Positions 768-4,109 of a stretch of DNA of 23,631 bases are shown piece by piece. The notes beneath the pieces were generated by a model. The model was not told the origin of the DNA. It did not search any database and saw nothing but the letters and a program-made list of their open reading frames with translations. Each line of letters begins with the position of its first letter. The first letter of the stretch is position 1. The translations under genes and the position numbers were made by a program. Origin of the DNA: a virus; the IMG/VR virus record IMGVR_UViG_3300030382_001812, positions 1-23,631 of that record; one strand, written 5' to 3'.

Positions 768-814
768 AAAAAAAGAGGCAAACGTCCTTAGACATTTAAG
801 CCTCTAATTTTTTT
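768..814. terminator. Bidirectional intrinsic terminator
   Basis: A strong hairpin with 6-bp outer stem AGAGGC/GCCTCT (774-779 with 800-805) and 7-bp inner stem AAACGTC/GACATTT (780-786 with 791-797, one G-U pair). The loop is CTTA and there is a 2-nt AA bulge at 798-799. It is flanked by seven A on the left (768-774) and seven T on the right (808-814), so either strand gives a hairpin followed by a U-run. It would end the leftward transcript that begins near 1465. Confidence 0.8.
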
Positions 815-890
815 GGTATGGCCTGTTGTTAAGACACCTGTTCTTAATCGGAATACAATTGTCCAAAATAGCTTCGTTGTTAGGAGATTA

Positions 891-1052
891 TTATATTTTT
901 ATACCCATTAATTTTAATATAATAATTACGCCCCCTAAGTATCCACTGCGGTAAATCACACACTCTGATAAACAATAACTACTTATTTTTTTTTCATTAT
1001 TAATTATTGGTGCAACACTAATTGGCTTTTTTAAAGGGTTACCCCCTACCAT
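891..1052 (-). CDS. Possible 53-aa small ORF
   Basis: A frame from ATG 1052 to TAA TAA, starting MVGGNPLKKPISVAP. It has two cysteines (SYCLSECV) and a hydrophobic C-terminal stretch (GGVIIILKLMGI) that could be a short membrane segment. No Shine-Dalgarno sequence precedes it, unlike the two tiny ORFs upstream. It lies between a candidate promoter near 1470-1500 and the terminator at 768-814. No homolog is recognised, and its reality rests on length and position only. Confidence 0.3.
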   Translation of the reverse strand: MVGGNPLKKPISVAPIINNEKKISSYCLSECVIYRSGYLGGVIIILKLMGIKI

Positions 1053-1080
1053 TTATATTGGTTGTTATCAATTAAAATGG

Positions 1081-1167
1081 TTATACCAAATTCTTAAATT
1101 TCTTTAAATATTTTTTAAATGAGTTAGGGTCGGTCTTAGGTTTTAATCTTGTTATTTTATTTTTCAT
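1081..1167 (-). CDS. Possible 28-aa basic micro-protein with SD
   Basis: An ATG at 1167 is preceded by a perfect AGGAGG (1177-1172) and TTTT, a rare signal in this window. The product starts MKNKITRLKPKTDPNSFKKY and continues with LKKFKNLV: very basic and helical, 28 residues, ending in TAA. The upstream frame that crosses an amber codon ends in a TGA overlapping this ATG. No family is recognised. Confidence 0.35.
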   Translation of the reverse strand: MKNKITRLKPKTDPNSFKKYLKKFKNLV

Positions 1168-1321
1168 AAAACCTCCTGGTTATAACACAACCAGTTCTAT
1201 TTTTCCTCCATTAAAGTGCCCGTTTCACTCCCAAAGTCATACCTCATTATTTAGTTGAGTTCCTTATCCAAATTAAATTAGTTTCCTAAAATTTTAATTC
1301 TGCAGGAACACCTTTCAAAAT
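1164..1321 (-). other. Frames broken by TAG codons between two SD-led micro-ORFs
   Basis: The frame of the 38-aa ORF (1438-1322) continues past its TAG through LKGVPAELKF, a second TAG at 1288-1286 and ETNLIWIRNSTK to TAA at 1249-1247. That TAA overlaps an ATG at 1247. The ATG frame (MRYDFGSETGTLMEEK) meets TAG at 1199-1197 and, if read through, ends at a TGA overlapping the ATG at 1167. A GGAGG also lies at 1209-1205. The stretch may be remains of decayed genes, untranslated leader, or amber-interrupted genes. I cannot decide from sequence alone. Confidence 0.25.
1172..1194 (-). promoter_or_regulatory. Hairpin touching a perfect Shine-Dalgarno
   Basis: Stem CTGGTT/AACCAG (1194-1189 with 1181-1176 in transcript order) with a 7-nt loop. 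The last two bases of the right arm are the first two of AGGAGG (1177-1172), which lies 4 nt before the ATG at 1167. The geometry would let stem stability affect access to the ribosome binding site. Confidence 0.45.
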
Positions 1322-1438
1322 CTAGCGTACTCTTTCAACGCATTGGAATTTATTTATCTTAAAATCTTGCGATTCTAAAACTCTGTCCTCATTTAAAAAA
1401 TAAATTTCTTTATTTTTCTTTAGAAATTTCTTATCCAC
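1322..1438 (-). CDS. Possible 38-aa ORF with SD and GTG start
   Basis: A GTG at 1438 follows a perfect AGGAGG (1452-1447) with an 8-nt spacer, close to the textbook optimum and unlike most genes here. The product starts MDKKFLKKNKEIYFLNED and ends near CVERVR with TAG at 1324-1322. It is charged and basic, and I recognise no family. It would be the first cistron of a leftward transcript from the promoter near 1470-1500. The frame continues sensibly past the TAG, so it may be the start of a broken longer gene. Confidence 0.35.
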   Translation of the reverse strand: MDKKFLKKNKEIYFLNEDRVLESQDFKINKFQCVERVR

Positions 1439-1468
1439 TTTTTCAACCTCCTCTTTCTAATTATAATA

Positions 1469-1499
1469 TAAAGATATATAAAAAATTTTATATTACCAA
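1469..1499 (-). promoter_or_regulatory. Candidate Bacteroidetes promoter
   Basis: On the minus strand TTG (1499-1497), a 20-nt spacer, then TATCTTTA (1476-1469) fits TTG-N(~20)-TAnnTTTG except for the last base. The AGGAGG-led ORF at 1438 starts about 30 nt downstream. The region is AT-rich, so a chance match is possible. Confidence 0.45.
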
Positions 1500-1522
1500 A
1501 TAAAATTATATTTATTTTATAT

Positions 1523-2372: not shown

Positions 2373-2901
2373 AATATGTATAAATTAAACCTTTATATTT
2401 TTTATCTAATTTTTTTATTAAATGAAACGGTATAGCAAAAAAATTTGCTTTAGCTGGTGGGAAATTTTGTTGTAAATATTGATTTAAATTTTCTTGCGAT
2501 AGGTTGTTTAAAGCTATTTTTAATAAAACATTGTTAATTATAAAAAATTGACTATAACCATTTTCTTCTTTATTTACATAACCAAAAAAATAAAATTGAG
2601 CTATTATTTTAAACCATTCACCAGTATCGTTTGTTTTAGGGTCATTAAAATATTCTAATGTTATTTGTTGAAAGCTCTTTTTTTTATCTCTTAAAGATTT
2701 TTCTTGAAAAGAAATTTTTGAACCATTTTCAAAAACTATAATAGTATCAATTCCTAAATCTTTATCTAAAATATCAAAAGTTTTATTTTCATTATTTCTG
2801 TCAGACCTATAAATAGATTTTATGTTATTAAAATTATTTTCATATATTTCATTAATATATGGGTGCATATTTTCTTCAAAGTCTTTATCTGCCCAACTCA
2901 T
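2356..2901 (-). CDS. Putative PD-(D/E)XK nuclease beside methyltransferase
   Basis: A 181-aa protein. The key stretch is DLGIDTIIV... followed by KISFQEKSLR: Asp52 then Q-E-K (66-68) with spacing typical of PD-(D/E)XK cores. A downstream TLEYF with Glu83 and a GEWF segment resemble the strand and helix that follow in this fold. The N-terminus (FEENMHPYINEIY) is helical. The start overlaps the methyltransferase stop as ATGA, the arrangement of restriction-modification pairs. It could be a restriction-type endonuclease, a repair nuclease, or a host-DNA-degrading enzyme. I recognise the motif, not a named family. Confidence 0.5.
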   Translation of the reverse strand: MSWADKDFEENMHPYINEIYENNFNNIKSIYRSDRNNENKTFDILDKDLGIDTIIVFENGSKISFQEKSLRDKKKSFQQITLEYFNDPKTNDTGEWFKIIAQFYFFGYVNKEENGYSQFFIINNVLLKIALNNLSQENLNQYLQQNFPPAKANFFAIPFHLIKKLDKKYKGLIYTYYDTNN

Positions 2902-4109
2902 AATCTACCTTTAATTATTTTAATATTTTCAATATCTTTTTCTATTAAAATGCAATTTCTGTTTAATTCTTTACATATTATACCAGTAGTGCCGCTACCA
3001 GCAAAACAATCTAAAACTGTATCATTTTCTTTTGACCCAGTTTTTATAATTCTTCTATATAACTCTAATGGTTTTTGTGCAGAATGATACTTACCTTCTT
3101 TGAAATTTGATTGAGGTGTTGCAATGTCCCACACGTCTGTTTGAATCTCACCAAATGTATCATCTGTAAAATTTAATTTTTTTGAATCTTTACCATAAAG
3201 ATAAATAATTGGCTCATAAGTCAACCTATATCTTTCTTGTGAAAATAATTTGTTATTATTTTTTTTTACCCATATTATTTCATTTCCATAATTGAAGTCC
3301 AAATAATTTAATCTTGATAAAATTTTATATAAATAATATTTATAGTCAGGTGAAAAACTTATATATATTCTACCAGTTGTTTTTAATTTCGGCTTTACAA
3401 GTTTTAGCCATTTTTCTGTAAAAGACAAAAAATCATCTAAACTATTAAATGTATCCCAATCATTATCTAATACAAAATAAGGTGGGTCTGTATTTAATAA
3501 GTCTATGCTGTTGTCTTTTATTTGATTTATCATATTAAAAAAATCACCTTCTAATAGTTTTATATTAGATTCTTTAAATTCTTTAGATTTCTCTTTTGTT
3601 TTTATAATATTTTCTTCTCTTTCATATTGTTTTGCAACCTTCAACATTCTACTTGTGGTTAATTCAATACGTTTATTCGTTTCTTCTGTTGCTGTTTTTA
3701 TTTCTTTTTCAAATGTTTCTTCAGGTAACGATGCAATTTTTTGAAATGTAGAACTTTCGTTTCTTGTTATCCCAAAATCAGAAAGTCTCGAAGTAATATC
3801 ATGTGACTTCGAGTAATTGTTTAAATTTTGATGTTTTGTTTTTGATATATTACTATCTATTAATAAACCACCTAATTTTCTTTGTGTATTAAGTTTTTGT
3901 TCTGCAATAATGTTTTGCAATTTAGCATCTTTCTTTTCTGCTTTTGCCCAAGTTTCTATTGCTTTTAATTTATTCAAATAATTAACACCAGTTTCAATGT
4001 CTTTAATCTGCATTAATTCATTTTTCATATTATCCCTTAATGCTATTCTAAAAACATTTTTTTCTTCTTCATTTAAATTTTTGTACTCTCTTAATTGTAT
4101 TCCATCCAT
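2898..4109 (-). CDS. DNA methyltransferase (N6-adenine or N4-cytosine)
   Basis: A 403-aa protein. The C-terminal half is an amino-methyltransferase with motif IV DPPY (208-211), HSAQKP (342-347) and the AdoMet-binding motif FAGSGTTG (369-376). Having the catalytic motif before the AdoMet motif is the beta-class order. The N-terminal ~180 residues are helical and charged (AIETWAKAEKKD, QRKLGG), an extension seen on phage methylases, perhaps derived from a ParB-like partner. Phage methyltransferases usually protect the genome from host restriction. The gene starts 3 nt after the exonuclease stop and overlaps the next, nuclease-like gene by 4 nt. Target sequence cannot be read from the protein. 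Confidence 0.9.
   Translation of the reverse strand: MDGIQLREYKNLNEEEKNVFRIALRDNMKNELMQIKDIETGVNYLNKLKAIETWAKAEKKDAKLQNIIAEQKLNTQRKLGGLLIDSNISKTKHQNLNNYSKSHDITSRLSDFGITRNESSTFQKIASLPEETFEKEIKTATEETNKRIELTTSRMLKVAKQYEREENIIKTKEKSKEFKESNIKLLEGDFFNMINQIKDNSIDLLNTDPPYFVLDNDWDTFNSLDDFLSFTEKWLKLVKPKLKTTGRIYISFSPDYKYYLYKILSRLNYLDFNYGNEIIWVKKNNNKLFSQERYRLTYEPIIYLYGKDSKKLNFTDDTFGEIQTDVWDIATPQSNFKEGKYHSAQKPLELYRRIIKTGSKENDTVLDCFAGSGTTGIICKELNRNCILIEKDIENIKIIKGRL

Follow-up and report, generated by a model that had tools for sequence, protein, structure and literature searches.

Between its RusA-like gene and a series of small early genes, this phage appears to carry an accessory, self-contained transcription unit in a site that varies among its relatives. 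Judged by sequence signals and synteny, the unit comprises a promoter (P1), an RNA of about 697 nt (1464-768) and an intrinsic terminator, all on the leftward strand (-), as are the other features of the segment given below. It is real as sequence anatomy and comparative placement. As to its product, we give even odds to a structured orphan RNA belonging to an accessory cassette of the phage. This reading is based on the promoter and terminator boundaries, the lack of the segment in relatives, the structure statistics and the lack of a coding signature.

The window, i.e. the whole stretch of DNA analysed, is the entire virus record of 23,631 bases. It contains a terminase large subunit (TerL) gene (PF04466), followed to its right by what we read from the ORFs as structural-type genes, while its left part holds small genes, mostly leftward. 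TerL has relatives at 46 loci in IMG/VR, mostly about 70-75% identical, and most of those in the genome collection lie in Bacteroidales or other Bacteroidota assemblies. The closest of the latter (L087, NYTN01000018.1; 53%) was binned with a Rhodobiaceae MAG; its 6.9-kb contig is probably that of a phage, placed there by misbinning. The marine tailed phage analysed here probably infects Bacteroidota: most TerL relatives in the genome collection point to this group, and the A+T-rich starts without Shine-Dalgarno sequences (SDs) and the promoter type agree.

Boundaries and placement of the unit

P1 (1469-1500) is formed by TTTG (1500-1497), a spacer of 20 nt (N20) and TATCTTTA (1476-1469), with a predicted transcription start near 1464. 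It agrees, except for the last base, with the -33/-7 pattern TTTG/TAnnTTTG of Bacteroidota promoters (PMC6847099, PMC7366714). TTTG/TAnnTTTR sites as such are not more frequent than expected by chance, and a scan for sigma-70 -35/-10 elements was uninformative (49 found, 45 expected); it is conservation in relatives that makes P1 credible. Twenty-five loci with the RusA-like gene (1523-1873 in the window; PHROG 244) were fetched for comparison of the site. Two of them, L048 and L066, carry P1 directly downstream of this gene, with the same -33 element, the N20 spacing and an identical TATATCTTTATATTATAATTA; the alignment of P1 to these loci reaches z-scores of 8.9 and 7.8 respectively relative to shuffles. 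At the same site L051 has a promoter of the shape TACCTTTATGTTATAA. In L048 and L066 the first small gene begins a few tens of bases past P1. By these alignments P1 is a conserved promoter located after the RusA-like gene, which normally leads straight into the small early genes.

The window diverges from L048 and L066 exactly after TATAATTA, and the segment is missing from the relatives covering the same site as well as from all the related contigs searched. The small genes past it are retained: the gene at 334-492 has an SDAYK motif as in L066 and the gene at 69-386 is 50% identical to that of L048. Over about 630 kb of related contigs the longest gap free of ORFs of at least 50 aa measures 305 nt. 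Since no larger gap exists in these relatives, the segment is an addition and not a spacer common to the family.

At its other end, the terminator (805-768) combines a 6+7-bp stem (805-775) and a run of 7 U. Its stability (-17.3 kcal/mol, z -4.5) was equalled by none of 200 shuffles. A similar terminator ends the corresponding operon of L049 (1897-1947, E 5e-5), which argues against a wholly foreign origin of the segment. Promoter conservation in relatives and the terminator give good support to the isolated leftward transcript proposed in a preliminary description made from the letters alone. The same description had envisaged material from an SD-using organism. This import was rejected because no donor was found and the promoter is native to the phage; the G+C content is also phage-like, and the terminator resembles that of L049.

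Beyond the terminator a promoter-like stretch, P2 (TTATATTTAATATT, 666-767), precedes the small genes 489-665, 334-492 and 69-386. It resembles the promoter regions of L048 (z 3.7) and L060 (z 4.3), a weak likeness given the A+T richness. With this stretch, the genes behind the segment seem to have retained a separate promoter. P2 bears on the possibility that the small-gene operon (665-69) has the segment as a long attenuator leader, in which pairing between the 5' end and an arm of the terminator would regulate read-through. In relatives P1 drives the small genes directly, while here a terminator intervenes; moreover, the 5' end (AAAGAGG) is complementary to the 3' arm of the terminator (CCUCUUU), and pairs with it in the minimum free energy (MFE) fold. 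Nevertheless P2 would leave no need for read-through, attenuation seldom involves an arm 690 nt away, and the alternative pairing is not dominant, the outer terminator stem and the 5'-3' helix both having pair probabilities below 0.8. We therefore hold an attenuator to be quite improbable.

A promoter and a terminator of its own, placed between genes that are neighbours in relatives, mark a moron or other accessory cassette; in the segment they are recognised by sequence signals and synteny. Morons and the T4 promoter-stem-loop cassettes (PeSLs, named in PMC4503421) are likewise extra units with a promoter and a terminator, placed between conserved genes, absent from relatives and with similar promoter sequences on both sides. 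Disparities nevertheless appear with both. Morons usually carry a recognisable protein gene, whereas the segment offers only ORFs of at most 53 aa, which belong to no families and do not have gene-like codon use. PeSLs consist of a promoter and a stem-loop only, whereas here about 650 nt of apparently non-coding sequence lie in between.

Predicted structure of the transcript

The full transcript folds with an MFE z-score of -3.7 relative to shuffles. The signal is uneven: -3.0 for the 5' half, -0.6 for the 3' half without the terminator, and only -1.7 for the whole segment when the terminator is left out. By stability and helix length against shuffles the transcript qualifies as a structured RNA to a moderate degree, several coding stretches of the same phage having z-scores of -2.4 to -3.2.

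Individual elements of the predicted fold are more distinctive. A perfect 15-bp long-range helix (inverted repeat I1) joins a 5' arm at 1388-1402 to a 3' arm at 1109-1123 with a pair probability of 0.93; a helix of 15 bp or longer occurred in 4 of 1000 shuffles. Inside it the fold contains an 11-bp hairpin (1381-1356) and a branched stem GUUCCU/AGGAAC (1259-1309), which itself encloses GAAUUAAA/UUUAAUUU and UUAG/CUAA (pair probabilities 0.94-0.95). Two hairpins follow in tandem. The first, CUGGUUGU/AUAACCAG (1176-1194; pair probability 0.97), stands just upstream of the second of two AGGAGG sites. The second, AGGUUUUA/UAAAACCU (1138-1174; probability 0.92), is a perfect 8-bp hairpin covering the last AGG of that site and the A of the start codon behind it. 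Together they leave one base of the AGGAGG free, and the pair (1194-1176 and 1174-1138) has a z-score of -3.4, matched in none of 200 shuffles.

These elements suggest the following course. The RNA would be made from the native sigma-ABfr-type promoter of the phage, probably early in infection. According to the model the 15-bp helix would close a branched 5' domain (1402-1109), with the second AGGAGG buried between two hairpins, and a less structured 3' part would continue to the terminator. The main product would most likely be a structured non-coding RNA rather than a peptide, its likeliest role being to regulate the expression of host or phage genes in the course of infection. Of the three natures that the preliminary description had left open, a structured regulatory RNA is the best supported, by the 15-bp helix, the tandem hairpins and the lack of a coding signature; no homologue that could show compensatory changes turned up in the collections searched.

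Shine-Dalgarno sites and small ORFs

Each of two AGGAGG sites is suitably spaced from a start codon, which suggests translation and speaks against a purely structural RNA. The first (1447-1452, within AGAAAGAGGAGGU) is 8 nt before GTG 1438, the start of a 38-aa ORF (1322-1438); the second (1172-1177) is 4 nt before ATG 1167, the start of a 28-aa ORF (1081-1167). Both ORFs were delimited mechanically. No start codon lies within reach of a GGAGG at 1209-1205. These sites, the tiny ORFs, the promoter and the terminator all lie where the preliminary description had placed them. For the pairing calculation (ViennaRNA duplex) we used the sequence of a Bacteroidota-like 16S tail. The predicted pairing is -13.5 kcal/mol for the first site and -11.5 kcal/mol for the second, and the best SD among the 28 other phage genes reaches -6.5 kcal/mol, in agreement with the earlier remark that the other genes of the window do without SDs.

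Two AGGAGG within this segment have a chance probability of p=0.023. The full arrangement, with each site 3-12 nt before a start codon followed by at least 25 open codons, was found in 0 of 5000 shuffles; as this test is post hoc, with a look-elsewhere factor of tens, we treat it as roughly p 0.01. Counted over the whole window, AGGAGG shows no enrichment (7 copies, with 4.1 expected), the other five being inside ORFs. The 22,330 bases of intergenic DNA of relatives contain one AGGAGG, versus two in the segment alone. A mechanical scan also lists ORFs led by an SD in relatives; these sit within longer frames or overlap them. Both sites of the segment belong to a 16-base near-repeat (TTAGAAAGAGGAGGTT and TTATAACCAGGAGGTT). 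By these calculations the SD sites of the segment may be real.

Such sites are unusual in this lineage. Ribosomes of Bacteroidota as a rule ignore SDs; the exception studied best is rpsU, which is autoregulated through ribosomes lacking bS21 and for whose message a pairing around -13 kcal/mol is reported as characteristic (PMC9976891; that value was obtained with another program and is only roughly comparable). The extended SD is defined by a pairing below about -13 kcal/mol with 9-13 consecutive base pairs. Site 1 pairs through AGGAGGU and AGAAA across a 2-nt insertion and so does not clearly offer 9 consecutive pairs. Site 1 shares with the rpsU (bS21) leader (PMC9976891) a strong SD in an SD-avoiding lineage and a predicted pairing beyond -13 kcal/mol; it differs in that the pairing is bulged, the SD-led ORFs are tiny and orphan, and no bS21 gene is nearby, none having been found in the window or in 38 related records.

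Coding signal was sought by codon use, taking as reference 35-codon pieces of the phage's own genes. The 38-aa ORF scores -0.08, an intermediate value between the phage genes (0.21 +/- 0.14) and the shuffles (-0.20 +/- 0.13). The 38-, 28-, 53- and 31-aa ORFs are all within the shuffled distribution (p 0.17, 0.45, 0.24 and 0.74 respectively), which is weak evidence at such lengths. The 53-aa ORF (891-1052) has no SD and is probably not a gene. No families were found for the 38-, 28- and 53-aa ORFs, and neither viral contigs nor phages yielded relatives of the peptides. Pattern matches from scans with the 53-aa and the joined 38+28-aa peptides were in no case confirmed.

The segment could then be a short mRNA, translated from strong SDs into peptides of 38 and 28 aa, with the second site locked by a hairpin and opened by translation of the first ORF. 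In its favour are the arrangement of sites, starts and ORFs seen in none of the 5000 shuffles, the pairing energies far beyond those elsewhere in the phage, the near absence of AGGAGG from the intergenic DNA of relatives and the perfect hairpin over the 28-aa start. The anatomy also provides a link, as ribosomes translating the first ORF would pass over the 15-bp helix at its 5' arm, which could alter access to the hidden second site. Against it stand the codon use of both ORFs, which is like that of shuffled DNA, the lack of peptide relatives, and ribosomes that, by the account cited above, do not normally read SDs. Of the regulated peptide operon proposed earlier only the 38- and 28-aa ORFs would qualify, and we consider such an mRNA somewhat unlikely.

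In leader-peptide attenuators of the erm/cat type, a short ORF with an SD precedes a second SD that a hairpin sequesters. The segment shows the same succession, but its second ORF is only 28 aa long and no resistance or effector gene follows. Bacteroidota and their phages avoid SDs; a phage transcript with two strong ones, one of them hidden in a hairpin, would let one ask directly whether the bS21 mechanism is exploited or upset by phages. That the segment represents a new RNA class exploiting the SD blindness of Bacteroidota, its AGGAGG sites being read by, or titrating, ribosomes lacking bS21 and thereby timing phage peptides or acting on host translation, is in our estimation a long shot.

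Searches for relatives and surroundings of the segment

At present the segment is a singleton in the sequence collections searched. Rfam, whose families include ROOL, GOLLD and OLE, gave no match in the window at the gathering score, and at E values up to 10 only chance-level matches in 700-1560. Nucleotide searches of phages and plasmids (E up to 10) returned only short A+T-rich matches. Scans of viral contigs with DNA patterns (the SD2 hairpin pattern, GTGTCTTAACAACAGG and GAGTGAAACGGGCACTT) gave matches that were all unrelated by context and by nhmmer. In 395 Bacteroidota genomes the best matches (L120 and L121) are A+T-rich and located in or beside unrelated genes. A covariance search over relatives had also been suggested in the preliminary description: with single-sequence models (R1 and R2) run on related contigs and on 148 or 395 genomes, only the L049 terminator stood out. 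No homologue came out of Rfam, phages, plasmids, related contigs or the 395 genomes.

Could the segment be decaying or non-functional DNA, an eroded accessory gene cassette of which promoter and terminator are left? It is a singleton without a conserved ORF, all its frames contain many stops, and relatives vary at the site that follows the RusA-like gene. Yet no PHROG or Pfam family is matched by the frames when each stop is replaced with X, and the comparison of 10,422 ORFs of relatives and prophages with the segment gave nothing above the reversed control. A decayed copy of a longer gene, the outcome that would have undone the preliminary description, is not borne out, as no frame has a protein match, although a decayed gene may lack a recognisable parent; its statement that no known family fits holds for Rfam, PHROG and Pfam. 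The 15-bp helix, the tandem hairpins and the two SDs are moreover unexpected in eroding DNA, and we judge erosion unlikely.

For a structured RNA, the nearest parallels are ROOL and GOLLD (PMC12286853), which are also stand-alone phage RNAs of several hundred nt, with a closed multibranched domain and no long ORF. They have many covarying members, whereas the segment is a singleton with no nearby tRNA and no Rfam match at E 10. If its product is RNA only, it would add a candidate to the large phage RNAs, few of which are known from this host group; as a single sequence with no relative, it has the standing of a candidate with clear boundaries rather than of a discovery.

The site after the RusA-like gene appears, from the loci compared, to be a hot spot for exchange. 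In L052 (5343-5510) it holds a different element of about 110 nt, richer in G+C (GATTGAGGGTTGGTTTAG...CTAAGCTAAACTCTCAATCTTTTT), which by its sequence looks like another stem-loop or small RNA. On the other side of the RusA-like gene, a multi-helix hairpin (1975-2045, -; ACACACC...GGUGUGU with inner stems) is followed by 8 U and has a z-score of -4.0. With this strong terminator just upstream, the RusA-like gene also seems set off as a separate unit. A 45-aa ORF with a hydrophobic stretch (1809-1946, -), in a different frame from the RusA-like gene and overlapping its start, possibly encodes a small membrane protein. Further into the early region, the gene at 2898-4109 (-) encodes an N6/N4 DNA methyltransferase (PF01555, PHROG 67) whose methylase domain is preceded by an N-terminal extension of about 170 aa.
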